Below the pieces are notes generated by a model. It saw only the letters and a list, made by a program, of their open reading frames with translations, made no database searches and was not told the DNA's origin. The position numbers were made by a program, and so were the translations under genes. A stretch of DNA of 64,000 nucleotides from Thermus antranikianii DSM 12462 (lineage in GTDB: Bacteria; Deinococcota; Deinococci; Deinococcales; Thermaceae): NCBI RefSeq assembly GCF_000423905.1, contig NZ_AUIW01000009.1, positions 1 to 64,000 on the forward strand. The letters are read 5' to 3'. Shown in pieces: positions 6,894 to 19,433 of this stretch; the first letter of the stretch is position 1, and each line of letters opens with the position of its first letter.

Positions 6894-8921
6894 CTAGGCG
6901 TCCAGGTGTGCCCGCCTTAGGAGAAGGGCGTTGAAGGCCACCACCACGGTGGAGAGGCTCATGAAGAGGGCACCGAGGGCCGGAGGGAAGAGGAAGCCGA
7001 AAGGGTAGGCCGCGCCCGCGGCCAGGGGCAGGGCGATGGCGTTGTACCCTGTGGCCCAGAAGAGGTTTTGGAGCATCTTCCTCCGTGTGGCCTGGGCCAG
7101 GTGGAGGAGGCGGACCACGTCCAGGGGATCGCTCTTGACCAGCACCACATCGGCGGATTCCATGGCCACATGGGTTCCCGCCCCGATGGCTACCCCAAGG
7201 TCCGCTTCCAGGAGGGCAGGGGCATCGTTGATGCCGTCCCCCACGAAGGCGGTGGGGCCTTGGGACCTTAGCTCCCGCACGATGCGGGCCTTGTCCTGGG
7301 GCAGGACCCGGGCGTGGTAGAGGGCGATACCCAGTTCCCCAGCCAGGGTTTTCGCCACCGCCTCGGCGTCCCCTGTGACCATAACGGGGGTGAGGCCCAG
7401 GGCTTTGAGGCGTTGGATGGCCTCCCGGGCCGAAGGGCGCGGGCGGTCGCGAAGAGCGAAAAGGGCGAGGAGGCGGGTTTCATCCATGAGGACCACGGCG
7501 CTTTCCCCCCGGGCCTCTACTTCCCTCAGGGCCTGGGCGAGGTAGGGGGGGAGGGAAAGGCCCAGTTCCTCGGCCCACTCCGGCCGGCCCACCCGGTAAA
7601 GCTGCCCATCTAGATACCCCTCCACCCCTTTGCCCGGCACGGCCTGCACCCTGGTGGGGGAGGGAAGAAGGGCCTCGGGGCCCAGGTGGGCCTTGGCGTG
7701 CTCGCGGATGGCCTCGGCCAGGGGGTGTTCAGAGAAGGCCTCGAGGGCCGCGGCCAAGGCCAGGGCCTTCCCTTCCTCGAGGCCCTCCGCATACACCCCC
7801 CGCACCTCGAACCGCCCCTCGGTGAGGGTCCCGGTCTTGTCCAGGGCCACATACCTTAGGCCCGTGGCCCGCTCAAAGGCTTCCCGGTTTCGGATGAGGA
7901 TTCCCCTTTGGGCGGCCATGGCCGTGGCGTTGACCACCACCAAGGGTATGGCCAGGCCCAAGGCGTGGGGGCAGGCGATGACCACCACGGTCACCGCCCG
8001 CTCCAGGGCGAAGGACAAGGATGCGTCGGCTAGAAGCCAAAGGAAGAAGGTTGCGCTTCCCCCCAGCACCGCCAGGTAGAAAAGCCACCCCGCCGCCCGG
8101 TCGCCCAGGTCCTGGAAGCGGCTCCGGGAAGCCTGGGCTTCCTCCACCAGGCGCATGATCTGCCCCAGGGTGGTGGAGGTTCCGGTGCGGGTCACCCGGA
8201 CCTGGATGGCCCCCTCCCCGTTTAACGCCCCGGCCAGGACCTCGTCCCCCACCCCCTTGGCCACGGGCCGGGACTCCCCGGTGAGGAAGGCCTCGTTCAT
8301 GCTGGTGGCCCCTTCCACCACCACGCCGTCCGCGGGCACCTGCTCCCCCGGGCGGATGAGGATGAGGTCCCCCTCCCGGAGGGCGGTGGTGGGTACATCC
8401 TCGACCCGGCCATCAACCAGGCGGTGGGCCGTCTGGGGCATCAGTTTGGCCAAGGCTTTTAAAGCCTCGCCCGCTCCCAGGATGGCCTTCATCTCCAGGA
8501 AGTGGCCGAGGAGCATCACATCCACCAGGGTGGCCAGCTCCCACCAGAAGGGCTTCCCCTCGGTCAGGGGAGCCAGTTCCACGGCCAGGCTGTAGATATA
8601 GGCCACGCTGATCCCCAGGGCCACCAGGGTCATCATCCCCGGCCGCCTGCCCCCAAGCTCCCGGAGGGCCCCCTGGAGGAAGACGCCGCCGCCGTAGAGG
8701 TAGATCAGGGTTCCCAGGGGGAGGGGGATCCAGGAGGCTCCCTCCCAGGGGGGAAGGCCGAGGAGGCCCCGCACCTCCTCGGAGGCGTAGAGGACCGGCA
8801 GGGTGAGGAGAAGACAAACCAGGAAGCGGTCCCGGAACATCTCCGGGGTGTGGCCCGCATGCCGGTCATGGGCCTGGGAGGGGGAGGCGGGGGGAGGATG
8901 GGGATGGGGGTGGGGATGCAT
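6894..8921 (-). CDS. copB: P1B-type copper-exporting ATPase, CopB type (CPH motif)
   Basis: This integral membrane pump would move copper out of the cytoplasm using ATP. The 675-aa protein lacks HMA domains and instead starts with a His-rich tail (HPHPHPHPPP, then AHDRHAGH), as in CopB-type pumps. The transmembrane metal motif is ACPHALGLA: CPH, the P1B-3 signature, rather than the CPC of CopA. The phosphorylation motif DKTGTLTEG, TGES and GDGINDAPAL are intact. Its start overlaps the multicopper oxidase stop (TAATG), so export and oxidation genes are coupled. CPH pumps have been linked to Cu(II) or Ag(I); which applies here is unknown. Confidence 0.92.
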   Translation of the reverse strand: MHPHPHPHPPPASPSQAHDRHAGHTPEMFRDRFLVCLLLTLPVLYASEEVRGLLGLPPWEGASWIPLPLGTLIYLYGGGVFLQGALRELGGRRPGMMTLVALGISVAYIYSLAVELAPLTEGKPFWWELATLVDVMLLGHFLEMKAILGAGEALKALAKLMPQTAHRLVDGRVEDVPTTALREGDLILIRPGEQVPADGVVVEGATSMNEAFLTGESRPVAKGVGDEVLAGALNGEGAIQVRVTRTGTSTTLGQIMRLVEEAQASRSRFQDLGDRAAGWLFYLAVLGGSATFFLWLLADASLSFALERAVTVVVIACPHALGLAIPLVVVNATAMAAQRGILIRNREAFERATGLRYVALDKTGTLTEGRFEVRGVYAEGLEEGKALALAAALEAFSEHPLAEAIREHAKAHLGPEALLPSPTRVQAVPGKGVEGYLDGQLYRVGRPEWAEELGLSLPPYLAQALREVEARGESAVVLMDETRLLALFALRDRPRPSAREAIQRLKALGLTPVMVTGDAEAVAKTLAGELGIALYHARVLPQDKARIVRELRSQGPTAFVGDGINDAPALLEADLGVAIGAGTHVAMESADVVLVKSDPLDVVRLLHLAQATRRKMLQNLFWATGYNAIALPLAAGAAYPFGFLFPPALGALFMSLSTVVVAFNALLLRRAHLDA

Positions 8922-10327
8922 TAGACCACCTCCAGCACCCCCATCATGCCCCGGTCCTCGTGCTCCACGATGTGGCAGTGGAAGACGGTCTTCCCGGGAA
9001 GGTTCCTAAGGGGAACCAGAAGGCGCACCACCTCCTTGGCCTTCAGGTTGACCACGTCCTTGAGGGCGCGGTAAGGAAGGGGCTTGCCGTTCACCGAGAG
9101 AACCTGGAAGGGGTGGGTGTGGAGGTGGAAGGGGTGGTCCATGTCCCCTTGGTTGTCCACCTCCCAGACCTCGAGGTCCCCCGCCCGTCCCTGGAAGTCC
9201 ACCCTGAGGTGATCAAAGGTTCGGCCGTTGATGAAGAACTTCCCGGCCATCATGTCCTCCGTGAAGGTGATGCGCCGGGTCACCCTGGCCTGGTTGGGGT
9301 TGAGGGCGGGCAGTTTGGCCAGGGCCTTGGGCAGGGGGAGGGGTTTGGGGCGGGGCGGAGCCACCAGGGTGAGGAGGGTTTGCGGGCCGCTGGGGCTCGT
9401 TCCCATGGACATTCCTCCGTGGCCCATGTGCTCCATCCCGCCCATCATGTGGATCCCTCGGTCGTAGGGCAGGGCGAGGAGGCGGAAAGCCCCTTCCTTC
9501 TGGAAGCGCACCAGGACCTCTGCCCGTTCCCCGGGGGCCAGGAGGAGTTCGGGGACCTCATAGGGTTCCTCCAGGAAGCCCCCGTCGCTGGCGATGAGGT
9601 AAAGGGGATGCCCTTCCAACTGGAGCCGGTAGTAGCGGGCGTTGCTGGCGTTCAGGAGGCGGAGGCGCAAGGTGGCCTTGCTGGCCCGCAAGGTGGGGCG
9701 GGAAGCCCCGTTGACCAGAAGAAGGTTGCCCTCCTTGCCGTTGATCCAGTCCATGGGGGTGTGGGCGGCGGGACGGCCCGATGCGAGCTCCAGGTCCTTG
9801 AGCACCAAAAGGTGCTCCTCGGCTTCCCGGAGCTCGGGAATCCCGTCCACGGGGCTTTCCACCACGATGGCCCCCGCCAGTCCGGCGAAAAGCTGGGGGG
9901 CCACCCGCCCGTGCAGGTGGGGATGGTACCAGAAGGTGCCTGCCAGGTCCTGGGGAACGGTGAAGGCGTAGCTCCAGGTTTCCTTGGGGGGGATTTCCAG
10001 GAAGGGATCGTCCACCTTAGGGGAGATGGGAAGCCCGTGCCAGTGCAGGTTCGTGGGCTCGGGGAGCAGGTTTTCCAGCTCGAGGCGCACGGCATCCCCC
10101 GGGCGCACCCTGAGGGTAGGCCCTGGGAAGCTGCCCCCGTAGGTCCAAAGCCGCGCTTCCCGTCCCGCCAGGGAAAGGGGGGTGGGGGCAACCTTCAGCC
10201 GCACCTGAAGAAGGCCGTCCCGGCTTTTGAGCACCGGGGGCTCGGGAAAGGAGGCCTGTCCCCTGGCCAGGGGGGAGAGGAGGAGGCCTGCGGTGAGCTT
10301 TAAAAGGGTTCGGCGATCCGTGTTCAT
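8921..10327 (-). CDS. Multicopper oxidase (CueO/laccase type), Tat-exported
   Basis: This enzyme oxidises substrates, plausibly Cu(I) or phenols, while reducing oxygen to water in the periplasm. The 468-aa protein starts with a twin-arginine signal (TDRRTLLKLTAGLLL), suitable for export of a folded cofactor protein. All four copper-ligand blocks are present: HWHG, HPHLHG, HPFHLHTHP and HCHIVEHEDRGMMG. A Met/His-rich stretch (HMMGGMEHMGHGGMSMG) about residue 295 resembles the Met-rich substrate-access region of cuprous oxidases such as CueO. It closely matches the laccase known from Thermus. The ATG follows GGAGGT and sits 8 nt after the -10 of a shared-box promoter. copB overlaps its stop. 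Confidence 0.93.
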   Translation of the reverse strand: MNTDRRTLLKLTAGLLLSPLARGQASFPEPPVLKSRDGLLQVRLKVAPTPLSLAGREARLWTYGGSFPGPTLRVRPGDAVRLELENLLPEPTNLHWHGLPISPKVDDPFLEIPPKETWSYAFTVPQDLAGTFWYHPHLHGRVAPQLFAGLAGAIVVESPVDGIPELREAEEHLLVLKDLELASGRPAAHTPMDWINGKEGNLLLVNGASRPTLRASKATLRLRLLNASNARYYRLQLEGHPLYLIASDGGFLEEPYEVPELLLAPGERAEVLVRFQKEGAFRLLALPYDRGIHMMGGMEHMGHGGMSMGTSPSGPQTLLTLVAPPRPKPLPLPKALAKLPALNPNQARVTRRITFTEDMMAGKFFINGRTFDHLRVDFQGRAGDLEVWEVDNQGDMDHPFHLHTHPFQVLSVNGKPLPYRALKDVVNLKAKEVVRLLVPLRNLPGKTVFHCHIVEHEDRGMMGVLEVV

Positions 10328-10335
10328 ACCTCCAG

Positions 10336-10369
10336 AGGGTAGGGGAGGTTTGTAAAGGAAGTATAAAGG
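10336..10369 (-). promoter_or_regulatory. Copper-island box promoter upstream of the multicopper oxidase
   Basis: On the minus strand CCTTTATACTTCCTTTA (10369-10353) holds two CCTTTA half-sites in 11-bp register. It is followed by 11 bp and then the -10 TACCCT (10341-10336), 8 nt before the ATG. No -35 is evident. The geometry equals that of four other promoters in this island, although this copy has CTTTA rather than CTTAA in the second half-site. Confidence 0.55.
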
Positions 10370-10384
10370 TCCCTTTTGAACCCT

Positions 10385-10774
10385 CTAGAGTTTGGCCAGG
10401 GCTTTTTCTAGCCGGCTTCTAGCCTCTTCCACCACGGGTTTCAGGGCCTCCTGCTTTTCCGGAGGGAGGACCTGGAACATGCCCTTGGGGTCTTGGAGGA
10501 GGATTTCCACGCCTTCTCCGCCTTCCCTGAGCACGGCGTTGCAGGGGAGGAGGAGGCCGATGTCGGGCTCGGCCTCGAGGGCCTTGGCGGCCAGGTTCGG
10601 GTTGCAGGCTCCCAGGATCAGGTAAGGGGGCCTTTCCAGGCCCAGGCGGGCCTTTAGGGTGGCGGCCACGTCGATCTCCGTGAGGATGCCGAAGCCTTCC
10701 TCCTTCAAGGCGGCTTCCAGGCGGGCACGGGCCTCGGCCAGGCTGGTTTTCAGGGTTTTCCTTAAGTCCGTCAT
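10385..10774 (-). CDS. DUF302 domain protein
   Basis: The 129-aa cytoplasmic protein fits DUF302: an N-terminal helix (SLAEARARLEAALKEEGFGI), LTEIDVAATLKARLG, then LILGACNPNLAAKAL and LLLPCNAVLRE, each with a Cys-Asn pair, and a helical C-terminal tail. The function of this family is unknown; the paired cysteines and position next to copper genes suggest metal or redox handling. The ATG at 10774 follows GGGAGGG; a longer frame upstream has no basis. It is transcribed toward the multicopper oxidase and may read through into it, but a box promoter lies between them. Confidence 0.82.
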   Translation of the reverse strand: MTDLRKTLKTSLAEARARLEAALKEEGFGILTEIDVAATLKARLGLERPPYLILGACNPNLAAKALEAEPDIGLLLPCNAVLREGGEGVEILLQDPKGMFQVLPPEKQEALKPVVEEARSRLEKALAKL

Positions 10775-10869
10775 GGTACCCTCCCTACCTAAAGTGTAGC
10801 GGAACCTGAGAGAAAAGACCTTTAGTGAAAGTCGTATTGAGGAGTTTTGAGGGGTATAGGAAAGGCCCT

Positions 10870-10906
10870 GGGCCCTGCCCGGGGTAGCTGCCCCGGGCAT
10901 GGGCCC
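10870..10906 (-). terminator. GC-rich hairpin between Met-rich protein and DUF302 genes
   Basis: TGCCCGGGG (10876-10884) and CCCCGGGCA (10891-10899) form a perfect 9-bp stem with a 6-nt loop, extended by flanking GGGCCC/GGGCCC with one bulged base. It starts 9 bp past the stop of the Met-rich protein gene. It lacks a strong T-run, so termination is inferred from position and stability. Confidence 0.5.
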
Positions 10907-10914
10907 TACCGGGG

Positions 10915-11568
10915 TCACTCTCCCAGGAAGAAGCCATGCCAAGTGTGGACCCAGACCTCCCCCGTGTAGGCGTTCACGGAAAGCATGCCCTCCACCTCCT
11001 TGCGCCCGAAGTCAAAGGTGTAGTACCCCGGGAAAGCCCCGGCTTCCATCACCTGGGCACCCGGGAGGTAACCTTTCAGGAAGGTCTCGGCCAGCTTCCT
11101 GGCTTCCGTCAAGGGGAAGCGGACAGGGGTCTGCACGGGCCCGCCCATCATGCCGTAACGGGTGTTCCACATCATGTTGGGGCCAGGTTCCGGGGAAACC
11201 ACCCCCGTGTAGCGATCGGCGATGAGCTCAAAAAGCCCCTGTCCCTTCTCGTCCACCACCTGGGCGTAGTAGTTTTGGCTGAAGGCCATGAAGTCCTTAA
11301 GGCGTGCCCCCGGGTAGATGCGCTTGGCGTAGGCTTCCATCCGCGCTTTAGCTTCTTTCTGGGGAATGGGCTGGGCCTCCGGAGGGTAGACCGCCATCAT
11401 GCCCATCATCCCGTAGCCGCCCATCATGCCGTAGCCCATCATCCCCGGGCCATACTGCGGGCCGTAGCCCATCATTCCCGGACCAAAACCCCCCATCATG
11501 CCTTGGGTGAGGGCGAGGCCTAAAAGCATAAGGGCCAGAACTCCTAAAGCCAAACCGTAGCGTTTCAT
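10915..11568 (-). CDS. Met-rich exported PepSY-like protein
   Basis: The 217-aa protein has a signal peptide (LGVLALMLLGLALTQG) followed by a Gly/Met/Tyr-rich stretch with repeated MMGYG-type units (residues about 23-58). Two tandem alpha/beta segments then resemble PepSY-type repeats: KARMEAYAKRIYPGARLKDF with QNYYAQVVDEKGQG, and ARKLAETFLKGYLPGAQVME with PGYYTFDFGRKEVEGM. Methionine clusters bind Cu(I) in periplasmic carriers, so a copper-binding role is likely but inferred. It is the second gene of an operon, overlapping the SHOCT gene by ATGA, under a shared-box promoter. Confidence 0.75.
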   Translation of the reverse strand: MKRYGLALGVLALMLLGLALTQGMMGGFGPGMMGYGPQYGPGMMGYGMMGGYGMMGMMAVYPPEAQPIPQKEAKARMEAYAKRIYPGARLKDFMAFSQNYYAQVVDEKGQGLFELIADRYTGVVSPEPGPNMMWNTRYGMMGGPVQTPVRFPLTEARKLAETFLKGYLPGAQVMEAGAFPGYYTFDFGRKEVEGMLSVNAYTGEVWVHTWHGFFLGE

Positions 11569-11810
11569 GCTTCACCTCCCTTTTCCAGTTCCTTCCGCAA
11601 CCTTCTGTAGGTTTCCTCGTCCAGCTCGCCCCTGGCGTACCGGAGGCGCAGGGCCTCCAGGGCCGCATCCTTTCTCGGCTCCCCGCTTCCCCGTTCCCAA
11701 GCCCGAAGGCCCAGGTACAGGAGAAGCCCCAAGAGGGCCAGCACCAGGAGCATGTTGAGAAGCCCGAAGAACCACCCGAAACCCATGCTGCCCCAACCCA
11801 TCATGCCCAC
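11565..11810 (-). CDS. Small SHOCT-domain membrane protein (copy 1)
   Basis: The 81-aa protein has one transmembrane helix (LLNMLLVLALLGLLLYLGLR) and a C-terminal SHOCT motif, LRLRYARGELDEETYRRLRK. Such short domains occur at the ends of many bacterial proteins and are thought to aid oligomerisation. The GTG at 11810 lies 6 nt after GGAGG; the ATG at 11804 is an alternative. It is paralogous to the SHOCT protein at 16439-16651, and both lead operons with shared-box promoters. A Met/Trp/Gly-rich N-terminus (MGMMGWGSMGFGW) could bind copper; this is inference. Confidence 0.78.
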   Translation of the reverse strand: MGMMGWGSMGFGWFFGLLNMLLVLALLGLLLYLGLRAWERGSGEPRKDAALEALRLRYARGELDEETYRRLRKELEKGGEA

Positions 11811-11827
11811 GGTTCACCTCCACCTAT

Positions 11828-11861
11828 ACCCTAGCCCGGTACTGTTAAGCTGGCGTAAAGG
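11828..11861 (-). promoter_or_regulatory. Copper-island box promoter for SHOCT/Met-rich operon
   Basis: On the minus strand CCTTTACGCCAGCTTAA (11861-11845) is followed by exactly 11 bp and the -10 TAGGGT (11833-11828). No -35 is present. The box lies head-to-head with the next box, and their junction forms the palindrome GTAAAGGGCCTTTAC (11855-11869). Confidence 0.7.
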
Positions 11862-11862
11862 G

Positions 11863-11896
11863 CCTTTACCGGCACTTAACGTTCGTCCCTTAAGCT
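11863..11896 (+). promoter_or_regulatory. Copper-island box promoter for the CcdA-like gene
   Basis: CCTTTACCGGCACTTAA (11863-11879) is followed by 11 bp and the -10 TAAGCT (11891-11896). The ATG at 11904 lies 7 nt beyond the -10, giving a leaderless start. The layout mirrors that of the divergent promoter. Confidence 0.7.
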
Positions 11897-11903
11897 GATG
11901 GGT

Positions 11904-12728
11904 ATGCGAAGAGAGCTCCTGGCGCTTGGTCTCGCTGTCCTGGGCCTGGTGGGGTTGGCCTTGGGAAGCGGGTTACTGGAGGAGGTTTCCCGAAGCCTTT
12001 ACCGAACGGCCAACACCCTGTACGCTCTCCTGGCCCCCTGGGTGGATGGCCTGAGGCGGGAGGTGGGGGTCCCTTGGCTTTCCGCTTTCCTGCTTGGGGT
12101 CTTGGCGGCCTTTGCTCCCTGCCAGATCACCACCGGGGCCAGCGCCCTGGCCTATCTGGCTCCTTCCGCCCTCGAGGGAAGGGTCTGGCCCAGGTTTCTG
12201 GCCTTTCTCCTGGGGAAGGCCTTCACCTACCTGGTGCTCGCCGGGGTGGTTCTCTTCGTTTTGGGCGGGACCCTGGACAACCCCGGGGCCATCTTCCGCC
12301 CGGTGCGGCTGGCCCTTGGGCCCTTTATGGTCTTGGTGGGCCTGGGCCTTTTGGGGGTGGTGCGCTGGCCCCTGGCCTGGGCGGCGCCGGAGAGCTGGGT
12401 GGCCCGGGTGGGGGCGTGGGGTGGGCTTGTTGGGCCCTTGGCTTTGGGCGGGGTTTACGGCTTGGCCTTCTGCCCTACCCTCTTCTGGCTTTTCTTCGGG
12501 CTTCTCCTTCCCCTAGCCCTGGCCTCTCCCTTTGGGCTTCTCTTTCCCCTTCTCTTCGCCCTGGGGACGGGCTTTCCCCTGGGTTTCCTGCTCCTCCTTT
12601 TCGCCCGCATGGGCCGGGGCCAGGCCCTCAAGGGAATGCGCCTCGTGGGAAGCCGTCTTCTAAGGGGTGCAGGGGCGGTCTTCGTGGCCCTGGGGATGTT
12701 GGACACGGTGCTTTACTGGAACCTCTAG
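11904..12728 (+). CDS. CcdA/DsbD-like transmembrane protein
   Basis: The 274-aa protein has about seven to eight hydrophobic segments. LLGVLAAFAPCQITTGASAL and YGLAFCPTLFWLFFGL carry two transmembrane cysteines next to prolines, the pattern of the CcdA/DsbD/TauE-SafE-like superfamily that passes reducing power or ions across the inner membrane. In a copper island it could reduce thiols of periplasmic copper proteins or move copper; neither is shown. The ATG at 11904 is preferred because the -10 of the box promoter ends 7 nt upstream; an ATG at 11898 is also in frame. A methyltransferase gene follows after 16 bp. Confidence 0.75.
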   Translation: MRRELLALGLAVLGLVGLALGSGLLEEVSRSLYRTANTLYALLAPWVDGLRREVGVPWLSAFLLGVLAAFAPCQITTGASALAYLAPSALEGRVWPRFLAFLLGKAFTYLVLAGVVLFVLGGTLDNPGAIFRPVRLALGPFMVLVGLGLLGVVRWPLAWAAPESWVARVGAWGGLVGPLALGGVYGLAFCPTLFWLFFGLLLPLALASPFGLLFPLLFALGTGFPLGFLLLLFARMGRGQALKGMRLVGSRLLRGAGAVFVALGMLDTVLYWNL

Positions 12729-12744
12729 CATGGGAGGCAAGGGC

Positions 12745-13365
12745 ATGAAGAGGGGCTTAAGGGCTCGGTTTTTCGCCGCCCTCCTTCCCGCCCTTTCCCG
12801 GGGGCACGTGGGCTTGAGCGAACCCTGGCGGAAGAAACTCCTGGGAAGCCTGGCGGGGAAGGTTTTGGAGATCGGCCCGGGGACAGGGGTTAACCTGGCC
12901 TATCTGCCGGATGGCGTCCACTGGATTGGCCTCGAGCCCAATCCCTACCTCCACCCCCACCTTAAGCGGGCCCTGAGCCTGAGGGGGCTTTCCGGCGAGG
13001 TTCTTTTAGGCCAGGCGGAGGCCATCCCCCTGCCGGAGGAAAGCGTGGAGGCCGTGGTGGCCACCTTGGTCCTTTGCTCGGTGGCGGATCCTAGGGCGAC
13101 CTTGGCGGAGATCCTCAGGGTGTTGAAGCCCGGGGGGCGTTTGGTTTTTTTGGAACACGTGGCCGCTCCCCCGGGCTCTTCCCTGCGTCGATTCCAGGAC
13201 CTCCTTTGCCCCTTATGGGGGTTTTTGGGGGACGGCTGCCATCCCAACCGGGAAACCCTAGCCCTTATTCGGGAAGCCGGGTTTGCCCGGGTGGAGGCGG
13301 AGGCCTTCGAACTGCCCCTTCCCCTGGTGGCCCCTCATGTGGCCGGGGTGGCCTGGAAGGGATAG
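12745..13365 (+). CDS. Class I SAM-dependent methyltransferase (METTL7/PmtA-like)
   Basis: The 206-aa protein has the SAM-binding motif VLEIGPGTGVNLAYL, the acidic motif II region GLEPNPYL, and motif IV VVATLVLCSVADP followed by LRVLKPGGRLVFLEHV. This combination resembles the METTL7 and phospholipid N-methyltransferase group, but the substrate is unknown. FLGDGCHPNRETLALI near the C-terminus carries Cys and His that could be catalytic. The ATG at 12745 has GGAGG 7 nt upstream. It is second in the operon led by the CcdA-like gene, so it falls in the same presumed regulon. Its end is 3 bp from the convergent propeller gene. Confidence 0.82.
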   Translation: MKRGLRARFFAALLPALSRGHVGLSEPWRKKLLGSLAGKVLEIGPGTGVNLAYLPDGVHWIGLEPNPYLHPHLKRALSLRGLSGEVLLGQAEAIPLPEESVEAVVATLVLCSVADPRATLAEILRVLKPGGRLVFLEHVAAPPGSSLRRFQDLLCPLWGFLGDGCHPNRETLALIREAGFARVEAEAFELPLPLVAPHVAGVAWKG

Positions 13366-13368
13366 CCC

Positions 13369-14127
13369 TCAGCGCCCCTGCCAGAGGGTGCCCCTTTCGT
13401 CCACCCAGGCCAGCCAACCCTCCTCCTGGGGATGGGCGGTGAGGGCCAACACCGCTCCCTGCCAGATCCTGCGCCACCCCGCTTCCGTCCGCTGCCAGAG
13501 GCCGAGCTTTCCTCCCAGGTACAGGGTGCCCGAAGGGGAGAGGGCCAGGGGTCCCGGGGCGGGGTCAGGGGAGGGAATGGGGCGGAAGCTTTCGCCCCCA
13601 TCCTCGCTCAGGAAGAGCCCCCTTTCCATCAGGGAAGCCCAGAGGCGGCCCTTTTGGTCCACCAGGAAGAAGGCCATCCCCGCTTTGGGCAGGCCCCGGG
13701 CGGGAAGCTTTGCCCAGGTCTGCCCGCCGTCCCGGCTGCGGAAGTAGCCGTAGGTGGCCTCGAGGGTGTAGTGGACCTCAGGCTTCCTGGGATCGATGGC
13801 ATAGGCGTGGAGGTCCAGGGCGGGAAGGCCCTTGGGCCTTAGGTCGCGGAAGCGCTTGAGATCCCGGCTTTCCGCAAGGATCCAGTGCCCGGCCGCGATA
13901 AGGCGCTTGCCATCCCAGGCCAGGTTCATGGCGTCCCAGTCCCGCCGCCGCACCAGGTCCTGGGGGGTGCTGTTTTTCCAGGCAACGATGCCGTCGTGGT
14001 GGCCCAGGAGCAAGGCTCCCGAGGGGTGCCACAAAAGGGCGTGAACGTCCCGCGTGGGCACCGGACCCAAGGGAGTTTGGGCCAGGGCGAGGCCGAGGAA
14101 GAGGGTAAAAAAGGTGAAAGGGCGCAT
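13369..14127 (-). CDS. Exported BNR/beta-propeller protein
   Basis: The 252-aa protein starts with a signal peptide (FTFFTLFLGLALAQTP). It then shows repeated Asp-box-like units, FRSRDGGQTWAKL and FLSEDGGESFRPI, each the S-x-D-x-G-x-T/S-W type turn of sialidase-like propellers. Between them are blade-like segments such as LLWHPSGALLLGHHDGI. It has no visible catalytic glycosidase set and is more likely a binding or scaffolding protein. Its gene lies just downstream of the CueP gene with a 6-bp gap, so the two form an operon under a box promoter. A role in copper binding is inferred from the context. Confidence 0.72.
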   Translation of the reverse strand: MRPFTFFTLFLGLALAQTPLGPVPTRDVHALLWHPSGALLLGHHDGIVAWKNSTPQDLVRRRDWDAMNLAWDGKRLIAAGHWILAESRDLKRFRDLRPKGLPALDLHAYAIDPRKPEVHYTLEATYGYFRSRDGGQTWAKLPARGLPKAGMAFFLVDQKGRLWASLMERGLFLSEDGGESFRPIPSPDPAPGPLALSPSGTLYLGGKLGLWQRTEAGWRRIWQGAVLALTAHPQEEGWLAWVDERGTLWQGR

Positions 14128-14133
14128 GGCGTT

Positions 14134-14649
14134 CTACCGTGAGGCGAGGCGGAAGCCGGTAAGGCAGGTGGGGCTTTGGCTGAAGGTGGCTACGGAGCCG
14201 GTGGCCGCCAGGTTCCCCCAGCGGATCTCCAGGGTGTAGCGGCGGTTGCGGGGCAACCAGAGCTCAAAGAACCCGTCCTTCCCCGTTTTGACCTGGGTCT
14301 TGAGCACCTCCTTTTCCCCCTCCAGCACCCGAACCTCAAAGACCTCCTCCTGGAGCTCCCCCGTGCAGCTGGAGAAGTAGTGGACCTGGCAGGGATGGGT
14401 ACGGCTCACGTAAGGGGCGATCGCCAGGAGGAAGCGGTCCTTGAGGGCCACCTGGGCTTTGCGGCCGTCCGGGAACTCGAAGAAGAAGGCCTCGGGAGTC
14501 ACGTAGCTCACCACCCTTTGCCCTTCCTCCCGCCACCGCTTGGCCAGGGCCAGGGCCTCTTCGGGCTTCAGGCCTTTGAGGGCCTCGGGGGAGGGAGTCT
14601 GGGCCAGGCCTAAAGCCACGCCTAGGACAAGCGCCAGAAGCTTCTTCAT
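14134..14649 (-). CDS. cueP: CueP family periplasmic copper-binding protein
   Basis: CueP was described in Salmonella as a periplasmic copper-binding protein that can hand copper to other proteins. The 171-aa sequence begins with a signal peptide (KKLLALVLGVALGLAQTP) and carries the family hallmark THPCQVHYFSSCTGELQ, with two cysteines and a histidine in the expected order. A third cysteine near the C-terminus (SPTCLTGF) is also typical. LKGLKPEEALALAKRW is the helical N-terminal region. The ATG at 14649 follows GGGTGGG. The gene overlaps the box promoter region and starts 11 bp beyond the histidine kinase stop. The call is strong on motif; the precise role in Thermus is inferred. Confidence 0.85.
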   Translation of the reverse strand: MKKLLALVLGVALGLAQTPSPEALKGLKPEEALALAKRWREEGQRVVSYVTPEAFFFEFPDGRKAQVALKDRFLLAIAPYVSRTHPCQVHYFSSCTGELQEEVFEVRVLEGEKEVLKTQVKTGKDGFFELWLPRNRRYTLEIRWGNLAATGSVATFSQSPTCLTGFRLASR

Positions 14650-14656
14650 GGTTCCC

Positions 14657-14690
14657 ACCCTAAGCCTTTCCCATTAAGCCTGTGTAAAGG
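14657..14690 (-). promoter_or_regulatory. Copper-island box promoter for cueP
   Basis: On the minus strand CCTTTACACAGGCTTAA (14690-14674) is followed by 11 bp and the -10 TAGGGT (14662-14657), 7 nt before the cueP ATG. The box overlaps the last codons of the sensor kinase gene and shows no -35. Confidence 0.7.
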
Positions 14691-15781
14691 GGCAGGGTGA
14701 AGCGGAAAACGCTTCCCCGGCCCAGCTGGCTTTCCACCCAGATCCTTCCCCCCATGGCTTCTACCAGGCTCTTAGCGATGGTGAGGCCCACTCCGGTTCC
14801 CCCGTCCTGACGGCTGCGGGAGGGGTCTATGCGGTAGAAGCGCTCAAAGATGCGGGGAAGGTGTTCCTCGGGGATGCCGGGCCCTGTATCCTCCACGCTG
14901 AAGACCACTGCCTGGCCTGCCCTTTCCACTCCAAGGGTTACCCTTCCTCCCTCTGGGGTGTGGCGGAGGGCGTTGGAAAGCAGGTTGGCGAGCACCTGGA
15001 GGGTCCGTTCCGCATCGGCCCAGACCCGGGGGAGAAAGGAGGGAGCCGCCACCTCCAGGGCCACGCCCTTGGCCTGGAAGGCGGGGCGGAAGCGTTCCGC
15101 CGCCTGTTCCAGGAGGCCTTTGGGGTCCAGGGGCTCGGGGTGAAGCTCCACGGCCCCCGATTCCACCTGGGAAACCAGGGAGAGATCCCGGATCAGCCGG
15201 CTCATGGCCCGCACTTCCTGCTGGATCCTTTCCGCTGCCTTTTCGGGCTCCATGACCCCGTCCGCCAGGGCCTCGGCGTAGGCTTGCAGGGCGGACAGGG
15301 GAGTCCTAAGCTCGTGGGCCACGGTGCCGATGAGCTCCACCCGGCTTTGTTCCACCCGTTCCAGAGCCTCGGCCAGGCGGTTGAAGTGAAGGGCCACCTC
15401 GCCGAGCTCGTCCCGTTCCAGGGGGGGAAGGCGAACCCGGTACTCCCCTTGGGCCATGCGGCGGCTTCCCTCGGCCAGAAGCCTGGCGGTGCGGGAGAAG
15501 CGCAGGCTGGCGAAGGAGGCGGAGAGGGCGGCCCCGGCCACGGACAAGGGGAGGGCGGCAAGGAGGGCGGTGGTGAGGGTGGAGCGGAGGCCTTCCTCGA
15601 GGTCCCGCCTTAAGGCCTCGCCCATCATGAGCCCGCCCATCATGGATAGGGCGTGGTACATGCGCTCCACATGCCCCCGGTAGAAGGAGGGGGCCAGGGT
15701 CTCCGCCAGGAGGAAGAAGAGGAACAGGGCCAGGAGGGCCACCAGAAGGTGGCTGAGGAAGAGCTTAGCGAAGAGGCGCAT
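14660..15781 (-). CDS. Sensor histidine kinase
   Basis: This 373-aa inner-membrane kinase has a first transmembrane segment (FLSHLLVALLALFLFFLLAE), a short periplasmic loop rich in His and Met (RGHVERMYHALSMMGGLMMGE), a second segment, and a HAMP-like linker (RRMAQGEYRVRLPP). The phospho-acceptor motif is GTVAHELRTPLSALQAY, and the ATP-binding boxes are NLLSNALRHTPEGG, VEDTGPGIP and GGTGVGLTIAKSLV. The Met/His-rich loop suggests it could sense copper or silver directly; that is inferred. The ATG at 15781 overlaps the response regulator by 17 bp, so they are coupled. A longer upstream start lies inside the regulator. Confidence 0.9.
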   Translation of the reverse strand: MRLFAKLFLSHLLVALLALFLFFLLAETLAPSFYRGHVERMYHALSMMGGLMMGEALRRDLEEGLRSTLTTALLAALPLSVAGAALSASFASLRFSRTARLLAEGSRRMAQGEYRVRLPPLERDELGEVALHFNRLAEALERVEQSRVELIGTVAHELRTPLSALQAYAEALADGVMEPEKAAERIQQEVRAMSRLIRDLSLVSQVESGAVELHPEPLDPKGLLEQAAERFRPAFQAKGVALEVAAPSFLPRVWADAERTLQVLANLLSNALRHTPEGGRVTLGVERAGQAVVFSVEDTGPGIPEEHLPRIFERFYRIDPSRSRQDGGTGVGLTIAKSLVEAMGGRIWVESQLGRGSVFRFTLPLYTGLMGKA

Positions 15782-16442
15782 CGGTTTCCCGGAAGCGGTA
15801 CCCCACTCCCCGTACCGTTTCAATGAACCGGGGGTTTTCCGGATCGTCCATGAGCTTTTTTCTCAAAGCAGCGATGTGCACGTCCACCACCCGGTCTATG
15901 CCCGGGAAGTCCGGTCCCCACACCTTTTCCAAGAGCCTTTCCCGGGTAAAGACCATGCCCGGGTGCTGGGCCAGGGTGAGGAGGAGGTCAAACTCCAGCT
16001 GGGAAAGGGGAAGGGGCTTGCCCTCCAGGTAGGCCTGCCGTTCCTTGGGAAGAAGGCGCAAGGGGCCATAGCAGAGCTCCTCCTTGAGGCCGGCCCGCCT
16101 TAGGAGGGCCTTGACCCGGGCCACCACCTCCTTGGGGCTGAAGGGCTTGACCACGTAGTCGTCGGCCCCTAGCTCCAGCCCCTTAACCCTTTCCTCCTCC
16201 TCCCCCCTGGCGGTCAGCATGAGGATGGGAAGCTCGGGCCTTTCCCGGCGCACCTCCTCCAGGACCTTGAAGCCGTCCAGCTTGGGCAGCATGAGGTCCA
16301 GGATGACGAGATCGGCCCGGGGAAAAAGCTCCAGGGCCTTTTCCCCATCCTGTGCCTCCAGCACCTCAAACCCAGCCCCCCTCAGGTAGGCCCCTAGGAC
16401 CTCGAGGAGGGCCGGGTCGTCGTCCACCAGGAGAACCCTCAT
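15765..16442 (-). CDS. OmpR/PhoB-family response regulator
   Basis: The 225-aa protein has a receiver domain with the acidic pocket LLVDDDPALLEVLG, the phosphorylated Asp in LVILDLMLPKLDGF, and the conserved Lys in YVVKPFSPKEV. The C-terminal winged helix includes RERLLEKVWGPDFPG and VDVHIAALRKKL followed by VRGVGYRF, typical of the OmpR family. It is cognate to the adjacent kinase. OmpR-type regulators bind direct repeats in 11-bp register upstream of the -10, which is the arrangement at five promoters in this island, including its own operon. That link is inferred. It overlaps the SHOCT gene by 4 bp. Confidence 0.93.
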   Translation of the reverse strand: MRVLLVDDDPALLEVLGAYLRGAGFEVLEAQDGEKALELFPRADLVILDLMLPKLDGFKVLEEVRRERPELPILMLTARGEEEERVKGLELGADDYVVKPFSPKEVVARVKALLRRAGLKEELCYGPLRLLPKERQAYLEGKPLPLSQLEFDLLLTLAQHPGMVFTRERLLEKVWGPDFPGIDRVVDVHIAALRKKLMDDPENPRFIETVRGVGYRFRETDAPLR

Positions 16443-16651
16443 GCGAGCTCACGCTTCATGCGCTCAAAGGTTTCCTTGTCGATCTCCCCCCGGGCGTACC
16501 GCTCCTTGAGGATCTCTAGGGCCCGGTCCCGGCGTTCCGGCACCAGGCTCCGAACCAGCCAATAGACGAAGAGGCCCAGGAGGACGAACCAGAGAAGCCC
16601 GAAGAGGGGCCCCCACCAACCCATGTACCCCCAGTTGCCGCACCACCACAT
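16439..16651 (-). CDS. Small SHOCT-domain membrane protein (copy 2)
   Basis: The 70-aa protein has a Trp/Gly-rich N-terminus (MWWCGNWGYMGWW), one transmembrane helix (LLWFVLLGLFVYWLVRSLV) and a C-terminal SHOCT motif, LKERYARGEIDKETFERMK. It is paralogous to the SHOCT protein at 11565-11810. The ATG at 16651 sits 8 nt after GGAGG; ATG and GTG codons further upstream are in frame but lie on or before that site. It is the first gene of the operon with the regulator and kinase, overlapping the regulator by ATGA. It could modulate the kinase in the membrane; this is inference from operon structure only. Confidence 0.75.
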   Translation of the reverse strand: MWWCGNWGYMGWWGPLFGLLWFVLLGLFVYWLVRSLVPERRDRALEILKERYARGEIDKETFERMKRELA

Positions 16652-16670
16652 ACCCATCACCTCCGGTTTC

Positions 16671-16704
16671 ACCTTAGCCGGGGCCGGTTAAGCCCCGGTT
16701 AAGC
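16671..16704 (-). promoter_or_regulatory. Copper-island box promoter for SHOCT-regulator-kinase operon
   Basis: On the minus strand GCTTAACCGGGGCTTAA (16704-16688) contains two GCTTAA half-sites in exact 11-bp register, followed by 11 bp and the -10 TAAGGT (16676-16671). It overlaps the last bases of copA. It implies that the two-component system regulates itself. Confidence 0.65.
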
Positions 16705-19063
16705 TCTTCGGTTGGAATCCCCTCAGCCTCAAGGAGTTGGTGAGCACGAAGAGGCTGGAGAGGCTCATGGCCCCGGCCGCCAGCATGGGGTTCAGAAGAA
16801 GCCCGGTGAAGGGGTAAAGAGCCCCGGCCGCCACCGGAATGAGGAGGATGTTGTAGGCATAAGCCCAGAAGAAGTTGAGGTAAATGGTCCTTAGGGTGCG
16901 CCGGGATAGGAGGATGGCGTGCACCAACCCTTCCAGGCTTGGCGAAAGCAGGATCACATCCCCGGCCTCCACCGCGATGTCCGTGCCCGTGGCCAGGGCG
17001 ATGCCCGCATCGGCCTGGGCCAAGGCGGCGGCGTCGTTGATGCCGTCCCCCACGAAGATCACCTTCCGCCCCTGGGTCTGGAGGTGCCGTATGGCCTCCA
17101 CCTTACCCTCAGGGCGCACCCCGGCCAGCACCTCCTCTATGCCCAAGGCCTCGGCCACCCGCCTGGCCGGGACGGGATGGTCCCCGGTGAGGAGGACGGG
17201 CTTGAGGCCCAGGGCCTTTAAAGCGGCCACCACCCTTCGCGCCTCGGGCTTGGGGGGGTCAAAGACCCCGAAGGCGGCCAAAAGCCTCTCCCCATCCGCC
17301 AGGTAAAGGGGAGTGTAGCCCTTTTGGGAAAGCTCCTGGGCCTCCTGGGGAAGGGCCACCTTGAGCCGCTCCATGAGGGCTGGACCCCCCAGGTAAAGCC
17401 TTCTTCCCTCCACCACTCCCTCGATGCCCTCCCCGGGCAGGGCCCGCACCCCTTCGGCCTCGGGCAGGTTGAGATCCTTGGCTGCCTCCAGAACCGCCTT
17501 GGCGATGGGGTGTTCGCTTCCCCGCTCCAAGGCGGCGGCGAGGCGCAAGGCCTCCTCAGGGCTTAGGGCGAACCCCAGGCGTTCCGTGAGGGTGGGCTTC
17601 CCTTGGGTCAGGGTCCCGGTTTTGTCCAGCACCACGGTATCCGCCCGGGCAAGGCCTTCGATGGCCTGGCCCTTGCGGAAAAGGAGGCCCATTCCCGCCG
17701 CCCTGCCCGTGGCCACGGCGATGGCCGCTGGGGTGGCGAGGCCCATGGCGCAGGGGCAGGCGATAAGGAGCACGGAAAGAAGGGCCACGAAGGCGTAGGA
17801 GAGGCCGGGCCCCAAAAGAAGCCAGAGGGCGAAGGTGATAAGGCCGATGAGGAGCACGATGGGCACGAAGACGCTGGCGATGCGGTCCGCCACCTCCTGG
17901 ACCCGGGGCTTGTAGGCCTGGGCTTCCTCCACCAGGCGGGCCATCTGGGCCAGGACCGTGGCCTCCCCCACCCGGCTTACCCGGATGAGGAGGGGACCTT
18001 CCCCGTTCACCGTTCCCCCCACCACCTCATCCCCGGGCTTCTTGGCCTTGGGGATGGGCTCCCCGGTGAGCATGGCCTCGTCCACATGGCTGAACCCCTC
18101 CACCACCACCCCATCTGCGGGGATGCGCTCCCCGGGAAGCACCCGCACCAGATCCCCGGGGATGAGGGCCTCGGCGGGGATTTCCCTTTCCTCCCCTTCC
18201 TGAACCACCCGGGCGGTTTTGGGCCTCAAGGCCAGGAGCTTGCGGATGGCCTCCGAGGCCTTCCCCTTGGCCTTTTCCTCCAGGTGCTTGCCCAAAAGGA
18301 TCAGGGCCAGGATCACCGCCCCCGCCTCGAGGTAGAGATGGCGGGCCTCCTCCGGGAAAAGGGTGGGAAAGAGCAGGACCAGAAAGGAGTAGAGGTAGGC
18401 GCTTCCTGCCCCCAGGGCCACCAGGGTGCTCATGCCCAGGGAACGGTGCCGGATCTCCGCCAGGGCCTGGCGGAAGAAGCGCCGGCCGGCGTAGAGGACG
18501 GGGAGGGCGGTGAGGGCTTGGAAAAGAGGAGGGAGGTGGGGAAGGGGAAGGAGCAGGGGCCCCATGGCTAGGAGAAGGGTGAGGAAGGCAAAGGGCAAGG
18601 CGATGAGGAGATCCAAGGGGTAAGCGGGGGCCGGTTTTTCCTCCTGGGTTACCTCTAGGGGCTCGTACCCTGCATCCCGGATGGCCTGGCGCAGGCGGGG
18701 AAGGGTCACGGTGTCCGGGAGGTACTCCACAAAGGCCTTCTCCGTGGCCAGGTTCACGTGGGCGGAAAGCACCCCGGGTAGCTTCTTCAAGGCCCTTTCC
18801 ACCCGGGCCACGCAGGCGGCGCAGGTCATGCCCCGGATGGGGATCTCCACCCGGGCCACCACTGGCTCGTAGCCGGCCTCCTCCACCTGCTTCAGGACCT
18901 CCTTGAGGTCTATCCCTTCCTGAAGGCGCAAAAAGGCTTCCTCGGTGGTGAGGTTGACCCGGGCCTCCTCCACCCCGGGGGCGCGCTTGAGCGCCCTTTC
19001 CACCCGCGCCACGCACGAGGCACAGGTCATGCCCTTTACCCCTACCTTCACTTCCAGTGCCAT
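16688..19063 (-). CDS. copA: Copper-exporting P1B-type ATPase CopA
   Basis: CopA pumps Cu(I) from the cytoplasm to the periplasm. The 791-aa protein has two N-terminal heavy-metal domains (GMTCASC near residue 15 and GMTCAAC near residue 81), about eight transmembrane helices with the CPC motif in [15 protein letters not shown], the phosphorylation motif [14 protein letters not shown], and [10 protein letters not shown]. It is the third gene of copZ-csoR-copA, but a 85-bp gap holding an inverted repeat separates it from csoR. Presumed control is by CsoR at the copZ promoter. It is the CPC counterpart of the CPH pump at the other end of the island. Confidence 0.96.
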
Positions 19064-19125: not shown

Positions 19126-19149
19126 ATCCCACCCTGGACCGGGTGGGAT
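19126..19149. repeat. Perfect inverted repeat between csoR and copA
   Basis: ATCCCACCC (19126-19134) and GGGTGGGAT (19141-19149) form a perfect 9-bp dyad with a 6-nt loop, abutting the csoR stop. It could act as a partial terminator that lowers copA expression or as a second CsoR site; it resembles the copZ operator in its CCCACCC/GGGTGGG core. No T-run follows. The 85-bp gap also holds ATACCCCCT at 19070-19078, a CsoR half-site-like string. Confidence 0.5.
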
Positions 19150-19433
19150 CAACGGTACTTGAGGGCCTCCATCAGTTCCTCCACGATTTCCTCCACGTCC
19201 CCCCGCTCGTGGGCGGTGGCCACGTGGTCCCTGAGGTGGGCCCTTAGGACCATCTCCCCCACCCGGTCCAGGGCACCCTCCACCGCCTTGAGTTGCTTCA
19301 GCACGTCCACGCAGTAGACGTGGGGATCCTCCAGCATGCGCAGGATGCCCTCGAGGTGGCCCTTGGCGGAGAGGAGGCGCCTTTTGGCCTCTTCCCGCAC
19401 CTTGGGGTCCAGGTGGAGGGGGTGGCGGGGCAC
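19149..19433 (-). CDS. csoR: Copper-sensing repressor CsoR
   Basis: CsoR represses copper-efflux genes until Cu(I) binds. The 94-aa all-helical protein has the family core AKRRLLSAKGHLEGILRML and LKQLKAVEGALDRVG. The metal ligands are Cys41, His66 and His70, the C-H-H set described for T. thermophilus CsoR rather than the C-H-C of other bacteria. It lies between copZ and copA, and the presumed operator is the dyad at 19658-19675. The GTG/ATG choice is not in doubt: the ATG at 19433 is 9 bp after the copZ stop. Confidence 0.95.
   Translation of the reverse strand: MPRHPLHLDPKVREEAKRRLLSAKGHLEGILRMLEDPHVYCVDVLKQLKAVEGALDRVGEMVLRAHLRDHVATAHERGDVEEIVEELMEALKYR

Follow-up and report, generated by a model that had tools for sequence, protein, structure and literature searches.

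A direct-repeat box before copper-defence genes of Thermus, Meiothermus and Deinococcus, very probably thrown by an OmpR/PhoB-type sensor–regulator pair of the copper island

Two-component systems of the CusRS, CopRS and SilRS type sense copper or silver outside the cytoplasm and turn on periplasmic copper defence, a route that we also propose for the pair described here. Known CusS proteins have sensor domains much larger than the short loop of the present kinase. In Corynebacterium glutamicum, according to the available passages of the paper on CopRS (PMC3140484), that system activates a multicopper oxidase and a copper ATPase. For Deinococcota, the literature searched (titles and abstract openings, most subscription papers lying outside its scope) yielded no description of copper control beyond CsoR and none of the regulon presented below, nor do the passages of PMC4605624 describe it. 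Here we analyse a copper island in which five promoters carry one direct-repeat box. Judging from sequence comparison, the box, which recurs before copper-defence genes of Thermus, Meiothermus and Deinococcus, is very probably a switch thrown by the sensor–regulator pair encoded in the island.

A search of the window (the whole stretch of DNA analysed, 64,000 nt) with the pattern CTTWAM-N5-CTTWA-N11-TANNNT returned five matches, four exact and one with a single mismatch, against 0.02 expected; none of 100 dinucleotide shuffles contained five (Table 1). These are the five 17-bp boxes picked out in an earlier note on this DNA, all present where it had placed them, with the same sequences and the same 11-bp gap to the -10 element (our match coordinates start one base inside them). 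The weakest is the oxidase site (CTTTAT-N5-CTTTAC), whose TACCCT lies 8 nt 5' of the oxidase start codon. For both the CcdA-like gene, the box of which is divergent from that of the SHOCT/Met-rich pair, and cueP, the ATG follows 7 nt 3' of the -10. Two of the five boxes overlap genes: that of cueP covers the final codons of the kinase gene, and that of the SHOCT-regulator-kinase operon the final codons of copA. The box-associated targets in the island include copper-defence genes, namely those for the multicopper oxidase, the copper ATPase (in a single operon with the oxidase) and CueP; in other genomes they include genes for DUF305 proteins, a four-helix copper protein and copper ATPases. The BNR/Asp-box gene stands directly behind a box in genome G013. 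No Pfam or NCBIfam model matched the Met-rich exported protein; its structure model is weak (mean pLDDT 65.8), with the YpeB C-terminal domain as best match (E 1.6e-4, TM 0.33), and on this model we tentatively regard the protein as PepSY-like.

Table 1 Boxes and genes of the copper island, in positions of the window
Feature	Position	Strand	Details
Box and -10, multicopper oxidase-copB operon	10336..10368	-	CTTTATACTTCCTTTAC, -10 TACCCT at 10341-10336, one mismatch
Box and -10 TAGGGT, SHOCT/Met-rich PepSY-like gene pair	11828..11860	-	Exact pattern
Box and -10 TAAGCT, CcdA-like (DsbD_2) membrane protein gene	11864..11896	+	Exact pattern
Box and -10 TAGGGT, cueP	14657..14689	-	Exact pattern
Box and -10 TAAGGT, SHOCT-regulator-kinase operon	16671..16703	-	Exact pattern
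CopB-type copper P-type ATPase, proposed target	6894..8921	-	TIGR01511, TIGR01525 above cut-off; CPH motif in translation
Multicopper oxidase, proposed target	8921..10327	-	Cu-oxidase families
Met-rich exported protein, proposed target	10915..11568	-	Without assigned family; possibly two PepSY-like domains
Small SHOCT-like protein, proposed target	11565..11810	-	PF09851, 24.3 bits, below cut-off 27
CcdA-like membrane protein, proposed target	11904..12728	+	ATG at 11904; PF13386 DsbD_2; ArsG model below cut-off; domain scan began at upstream ATG 11898
BNR/Asp-box protein 3' of cueP, probable target	13369..14127	-	BNR repeat, 21.8 bits, below cut-off 27
CueP copper-binding protein, proposed target	14134..14649	-	PF21172, 98.1 bits, cut-off 27
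Sensor histidine kinase with short sensor loop	14660..15781	-	HAMP, HisKA, HATPase_c
OmpR/PhoB-type response regulator, proposed activator	15765..16442	-	Response_reg, Trans_reg_C
Small SHOCT protein, first gene of regulator operon	16439..16654	-	PF09851 above cut-off
CopA-type ATPase, CsoR side; 3' end bears regulator-operon box	16688..19063	-	TIGR01511 above cut-off
CsoR, beside island copA	19149-19433		Copper regulator by family

The response regulator belongs to the OmpR/PhoB family (PF00072, 106.4 bits; PF00486, 99 bits; both above cut-off). However, unlike pairs of the CusRS/CopRS/SilRS type, it scores only 164 bits against TIGR01387 (CusR/CopR/SilR/CzcR; cut-off 279.2), and the kinase 175.1 bits against TIGR01386 (CusS/CopS/SilS; cut-off 292.55), a match that spans residues 60-364 only and starts after the first part of the sensor loop. 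With both scores under the cut-offs, we rejected these curated heavy-metal families as the home of the pair. In an alignment of 51 distinct kinases, Phe33, His37 and Met41 of the loop are invariant in every one. The sensor had been called Met/His-rich in the earlier note, a description that fits most Thermus sequences; phylum-wide, the loop keeps one invariant His and one invariant Met.

The exact pattern has four matches in the whole genome of 2,162,148 bases, always inside the island, with no match in the reversed control. With one mismatch allowed, six matches were obtained (reversed control 1), comprising the five island sites and C1:45408, an extra match outside the island that lacks TANNNT. 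When Thermus sites were picked by the direct repeat alone, 45 of the 47 distinct contexts had TANNNT at the distance expected, and in the same set it stood at 0 of 30 other distances; the fixed gap is thus not an artefact of the search, because it holds at sites picked without TANNNT. In Deinococcus, the -10 lies one base further away in 4 of 24 sites. As a test on sequence, a direct repeat with an 11-bp period at one fixed distance before the -10 fits the class II layout of OmpR/PhoB-family regulators over the -35 region, and the 11-bp period and the TANNNT spacing agree with the promoter layout read from the five sites originally. Promoters of one island could be co-duplicated, and the shared sequence might be a relic of promoters copied with their genes, or else a general promoter feature. 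Either origin is hardly credible: elsewhere in the 2.16-Mb genome there is no exact match, which led us to reject a general promoter element; flanking and inter-half-site sequences vary among the sites compared, whereas half-sites and spacing stay constant; and both other families and Deinococcus show boxes of this same geometry.

Within the genus, 56 exact boxes were found in 21 of 27 genomes (reversed control 1), all within copper-gene neighbourhoods, so that the conservation before orthologous genes on which the earlier note had staked its regulon is borne out. An orthologue of the response regulator (at least 82% identity) is present in 20 of the 27. Exact boxes occur in 20/20 genomes with the regulator versus 1/7 without it (Fisher p = 2.4e-5, uncorrected for shared ancestry), the single regulator-less genome with a box (one box) being fragmentary. 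These counts are non-independent, regulator and targets being linked and the genomes related, and the seven regulator-less genomes also lack the oxidase gene. A box lies upstream of 14 of the 16 oxidase genes of the genus; the two exceptions, in G006 and G012, had none in the loci examined. Allowing one mismatch adds isolated matches in two more regulator-less genomes (G019 and G021), and the one-mismatch site CTTAACCATGCCTTCAAC of G009, G010 and G011 was rejected, as it also occurs in regulator-less G019.

This distribution bears on whether CsoR, or some other regulator of the island, binds the boxes, with the two-component system as a bystander. The csoR gene adjoins the island copA, and its product is a copper regulator by family. 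However, CsoR (at least 86% identity) is encoded in 26 of the 27 genus genomes; six of the seven genomes without the response regulator are among them, and the box therefore tracks the response regulator and not CsoR. Five of those six have no exact box, so that sites fail to follow CsoR in 5 of the 26 genomes that carry it. CsoR operators are, moreover, described in the available passages of PMC3902906 as G-tract pseudopalindromes, as against direct repeats over the -35 region here. CsoR was rejected as the box binder on genome distribution, and we rate the bystander explanation as very unlikely; a regulon separate from CsoR control, as first suggested from the island, agrees with these counts.

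The proposed regulon, supported in the genus, reaches further than had been claimed. In Meiothermus relatives and in family f4, the same box stands at the same distance before copper genes and before the regulator's own operon, and Deinococcus plasmid loci carry it before both as well, with boxes in 14 of 14 loci (38 boxes, reversed control 0). As a negative control, 80 loci of other phyla contain one box; these loci come from a genome-collection scan with the regulator in which near relatives were possibly left out, and none is labelled as Thermaceae or Deinococcus among the matches listed (best identity 53%). The site is common to orthologous promoters, is lost with the regulator and precedes the regulator's own operon, as comparative genomics expects of a regulon, with exceptions in G009, G012, G020, G031, G038 and G042. 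G009 and G012 have a degenerate autoregulatory site, with 3-4 mismatches and the register kept; G020 and G031 have boxes without the regulator, apparently as deletion relics; G042, also regulator-less, has one exact box with CANNNT as the -10; and G038 has the regulator and no exact box in its genome. In G028, where the regulator is present, the single exact box lies on a different contig. Scattered matches in families f3 and f5 were treated as chance, given the reversed-control matches in several of their genomes.

Among the 20 genus genomes with the regulator, 16 carry the box ahead of its own operon and 2 more carry it ahead of a DUF305-copA-regulator-kinase cluster, matching the self-activation layout predicted from the island. 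This placement, shared by family f4 and Deinococcus, argues against a different OmpR-type regulator, encoded elsewhere, as the protein that binds the boxes, with the island pair serving separate targets. Such regulators are plentiful (10-21 matches to the regulator per genus genome), related ones can share box types, and some genomes have a similar box that belongs to another regulator. However, other members of the family are also present in box-less genomes, and we hold this alternative to be unlikely. Separately, CTTTACC-N4-CTTTACC sites in G027, G030, G039 and G045 lie before another regulator or other genes and were excluded from the system; similar repeats can also be sites for other regulators of the OmpR type.

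We are thus fairly confident that the five boxes are the operators of one activator, the island OmpR/PhoB-type regulator, working with its partner kinase, and the best reading of the whole is a copper/silver two-component regulon of Deinococcota that activates itself and whose pair scores under the curated CusR/CopR and CusS/CopS-type cut-offs. The kinase would sense copper or silver outside the cytoplasm via its short loop with conserved His and Met and would phosphorylate the regulator, which would bind CTTTAC-N5-CTTAAC as a head-to-tail dimer at about -39 to -23, in place of a -35 element, and recruit RNA polymerase to the bare TANNNT -10. We infer activation rather than repression; with no -35, almost no transcription is expected from these promoters in the activator's absence. 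Probably several of them yield leaderless messages, the regulator-kinase operon would amplify itself because it bears the same box, and copZ-csoR-copA would be under separate CsoR control from the cell interior. We give roughly even chances to a broader picture: an old, phylum-wide copper/silver regulon of Deinococcota, run by an OmpR-type lineage outside the CusR/CopR models through a minimal membrane-side Cu(I)/Ag(I) loop (FYRxHVxxM) and a box that takes the place of the -35 entirely and stands at a single fixed distance. Under its control would come export, oxidation, CueP and Met-rich PepSY-like proteins, joined in some lineages by the lipoprotein-maturation enzymes lgt and lnt.

If borne out, the regulon would be a definite set of copper-stress genes for Deinococcota, and its motif would be sharp enough for targets, proteins without assigned function among them, to be annotated from sequence alone. 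Promoters that depend on an activator, tolerate essentially a single spacing and in several cases probably start leaderless messages would make a clean study system, and they are candidates for a metal-inducible switch in thermophiles and in Deinococcus. With its small size and ease of mutation, the compact His/Met loop would allow a test of the way in which Cu(I) or Ag(I) is detected by a histidine kinase.

Among known operators, the PmrA box, CTTAAG-N5-CTTAAG, looks very similar to the island box. This likeness is not backed by closest kinship, because among solved chains BasR scores 112 bits against the island regulator, below MtrA at 179 bits, and the signals and genes of both PhoB and PmrA/BasR differ from those of the island system. 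The island layout resembles that of PhoB, which, in the passages of PMC3348028, binds head-to-tail in tandem on direct repeats over the -35 region. AgrR of Cupriavidus metallidurans, as presented in passages of PMC7380067, is likewise a metal-linked OmpR-type regulator, a proposed type II activator with positive autoregulation; by contrast, the repeat at its core site is inverted (ATKACA-N4-TGTMAT), and some operators have extra direct half-sites. C. glutamicum CopRS, in the passages of PMC3140484, shares with the island an autoregulated OmpR-type regulator with its kinase, a direct repeat of 11-bp period (TGAAGATTT-nn-TGAAGATTT) and, as proposed here, a separate CsoR watching the cytoplasm. 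Its box differs in sequence, however, and forms a single genomic site 266-285 bp before one transcription start, whereas the island box serves several promoters at a fixed distance from the -10.

The earlier note had placed five boxes in the copper island, and a pattern scan of the window recovered all of them in those positions. Four match CTTWAM-N5-CTTWA-N11-TANNNT (a direct repeat followed by the -10) exactly, and the oxidase site carries one mismatch. With one mismatch allowed, shuffled versions of the window gave 0.02 matches on average and never five. Across the T. antranikianii assembly (2.16 Mb, 33 contigs), exact matches number four, all of them inside the island, and the exact reversed pattern is absent; allowing one mismatch yields six matches, namely the five window sites and one elsewhere, with one match for the reversed control. 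The proposed conservation upstream of orthologues extends through the genus, with 56 exact matches in 21 of the 27 Thermus genomes (reversed control, 1), all 56 of which fall in the copper-gene stretches that were extracted and scanned. Two of the window boxes, divergent and set back to back, together make up a nearly perfect palindrome (GTAAAGGGCCTTTAC); the pair is kept in relatives at slightly different distances. A small-protein gene with no box of its own separates the oxidase box from the Met-rich gene; its product looks DUF302-like (its single NCBIfam match is far below the cut-off).

Individual sites differ in how they are kept. Aligned on the start codon rather than on the box, the cueP site keeps a constant position in 18 of 19 loci; in the remaining locus it is one base nearer. 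Since this box overlaps the last codons of the kinase gene, its conservation could partly reflect constraint on the kinase protein; even so, leucine is encoded within the box by TTA, the least used of its codons (11 of 544 in the nine island genes counted). The SHOCT-regulator box overlaps the end of copA and is likewise coding DNA. The oxidase gene is present in 16 of the 27 genomes and is preceded by a box (up to two mismatches) in 14, the loci scanned in G006 and G012 having none; in the draft assembly G014 it lies on a separate contig from the rest, with its own box. One genome (G013) has an exact box without a long reading frame after it, at the place where relatives have the oxidase gene. 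In another (G008) the oxidase gene matches in two pieces, one with an internal stop, and may thus be disrupted, with its box retained.

Because the search pattern itself contains the 11-bp gap, sites were re-chosen on the direct repeat alone. The fixed gap proposed in the earlier note held: TANNNT stands at the predicted distance in 45 of 47 distinct Thermus island sites and at none of 30 other distances tested on the same 47. With C or T allowed as the first base of the -10, the predicted distance is found in 31 of 35 Meiothermus-group sites (at most three at any other distance) and in 20 of 24 Deinococcus sites, the other four being one base longer. Among correctly spaced sites, an ATG follows the -10 by 6–8 nt in 19 of 45 in Thermus, 5 of 31 in the Meiothermus group and 10 of 20 in Deinococcus. 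These distances agree with a published analysis in which leaderless genes abound in Deinococcus-Thermus genomes and carry a TANNNT signal about 12 bp before the start (PMC3160421).

Co-occurrence separates the two candidate regulators. An orthologue of the island OmpR/PhoB-type regulator (at least 82% identity) is encoded in 20 of the 27 genomes, all 20 of which have exact boxes, and six of the seven regulator-less genomes lack an exact box (Fisher p = 2.4e-5 over 27 genomes, a statistic weakened by linkage and shared ancestry). The exception, G020, is 65% complete in about 620 pieces, and an unrelated gene comes immediately after its box and SHOCT gene. This box and a similar one in G031, from another genus of the family, are apparent relics of the loss of regulator and kinase. 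With one mismatch allowed, isolated matches appear in two other regulator-less genomes, G019 and G021. CsoR (at least 86% identity) is encoded in 26 of 27 genomes, including six of the seven without the regulator. The regulator-less genomes also miss at least one target, as the oxidase gene is absent from all seven. Judged from these genomes, the contrast between the regulator and CsoR stands despite linkage and shared ancestry. A box (up to one mismatch) directly precedes the regulator's own operon in 16 of the 20 genomes; in G003 and G025 it precedes a DUF305-copA-regulator-kinase cluster, and in G009 and G012 the autoregulatory site is degenerate (3–4 mismatches) in an unchanged register.

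Features located in the window (first four rows), in genome G008 and in extracted loci (L)
Feature	Position	Strand	Remark
Divergent box pair	11845-11879		near-perfect palindrome
Small-protein gene	10385-10774	-	
Regulator gene	15765-16442	-	
Kinase gene	14660-15781	-	
Oxidase gene, G008	C9:8596-9997		
Apparent deletion relic, G020	L082:3993-4025	-	box and SHOCT gene start kept, regulator and kinase gone
Apparent deletion relic, G031	L103:10001	+	box and SHOCT gene start kept, regulator and kinase gone
Box before lgt/lnt gene	L231:7408	+	copper island
Box before lgt/lnt gene	L231:14446	-	copper island
Box before lgt/lnt gene	L251:6418	+	copper island
Box before lgt/lnt gene	L105:12422	+	copper island
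Box before lgt/lnt gene	L105:14296	+	copper island
CTTTACC-N4-CTTTACC	L098:10033	-	
CTTTACC-N4-CTTTACC	L101:9341	-	
CTTTACC-N4-CTTTACC	L111:8347	-	
CTTTACC-N4-CTTTACC	L101:14635	+	
CTTTACC-N4-CTTTACC	L111:13639	+	
CTTTACC-N4-CTTTACC	L115:10033	-	

The Meiothermus group has the same box, sometimes with a CANNNT -10, before oxidase, DUF411, DUF305, SHOCT, lgt, lnt and regulator genes. In family f4, box, SHOCT, regulator and kinase follow one another in all four regulator loci (regulator identity 68–72%; loci selected for holding a box), and in a fifth locus the genes behind the box encode a Met-rich protein and a copper-type ATPase. A tblastn search of plasmids with the regulator returned 22 records (21 Deinococcus, one Meiothermus), of which 15 (14 and one) were analysed. 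With CTTWAC as the first half, CTKWAC as the second and up to one mismatch, 38 boxes were counted in the 14 Deinococcus loci, at least one per locus (reversed control, 0); 21 exact ones lie in 13 of these loci. They precede DUF305 genes just upstream of regulator and kinase, as well as cueP, copper ATPases, a four-helix copper protein, lgt and lnt. Boxes before lgt and lnt tie lipoprotein maturation to copper stress. By contrast, regulator neighbourhoods from other phyla (80 loci, 1.28 Mb in all) contain a single box. Four genomes from other genera of the family do not fit the pattern: G038 has the regulator with no convincing box in the surrounding 16 kb and no exact box genome-wide; G028 has no box in 9 kb around its regulator and one exact box on another contig; and G031, with its relic box, and G042, with an exact CANNNT box, have no regulator at E ≤1e-68. 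Genomes G029 (L099, L100) and G033 (L106-L108) share near-identical box-bearing stretches, scattered across some 50 kb and containing lgt, SHOCT-regulator and Met-rich genes; as the two are assigned to different genera (g3 and g4), this points to a mobile copper island. In genera g2-g4, another response regulator gene (226 aa) and a 360–366-aa membrane-protein-like gene are preceded by a related but distinct box, CTTTACC-N4-CTTTACC, which probably marks a second OmpR-type autoregulated system.

When TANNNT is numbered -12 to -7, the two repeats cover roughly -39 to -34 and -28 to -23. Like PhoB (PMC3348028), a tandem regulator dimer on them would occupy the place in which sigma region 4 would look for a -35. 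Beyond the box, geometry and gene content, which are observed, we infer the signalling and activation steps: copper or silver outside the cytoplasm would act on the kinase, the phosphorylated regulator would dimerize on the box, and the dimer would bring polymerase to the -10. Autoregulation would make the response sharp and self-amplifying. CsoR would guard the cytoplasm through copZ-csoR-copA and, because the end of copA contains the start of the regulator operon, CsoR-controlled read-through from copA may also feed that operon.

The regulator combines PF00072 and PF00486, and, among proteins of solved structure, MtrA, RpaA and RegX3 are closest to it in sequence. In a midpoint-rooted FastTree phylogeny, read for topology only, the regulators associated with boxes in Thermus, the Meiothermus group and Deinococcus form one cluster, to which an additional regulator of Deinococcus grandis also belongs; the other Thermus regulators in the tree lie outside it. 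The kinase has a short loop between two apparent membrane helices. Phe33, His37 and Met41 are invariant in all 51 aligned sequences (of 55 found, two partial ones and exact duplicates being dropped), among which loop Met-Met pairs are typical of Thermus only. His37 and Met41 are four residues apart on what is likely a helix and could act as ligands for Cu(I) or Ag(I).

The literature searched, mostly non-subscription papers, yielded no account of this regulon for Thermus, Meiothermus or Deinococcus. The island pair resembles CusRS/CopRS in its proposed working; it is not a member of those families as they are defined, because regulator and kinase both score far below the curated heavy-metal regulator and sensor models. 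AgrR is a proposed type II activator with an inverted core site, unlike the direct repeat of the island (PMC7380067). The closest described system found is CopRS of C. glutamicum, which likewise has a direct repeat of 11-bp period before copper genes but differs in repeat sequence and in having a single reported site (PMC3140484). We rate the island system, from its sequence features, as a two-component copper regulon that belongs to a different OmpR lineage and has a box of its own, a rigid promoter geometry and a compact putative sensor.
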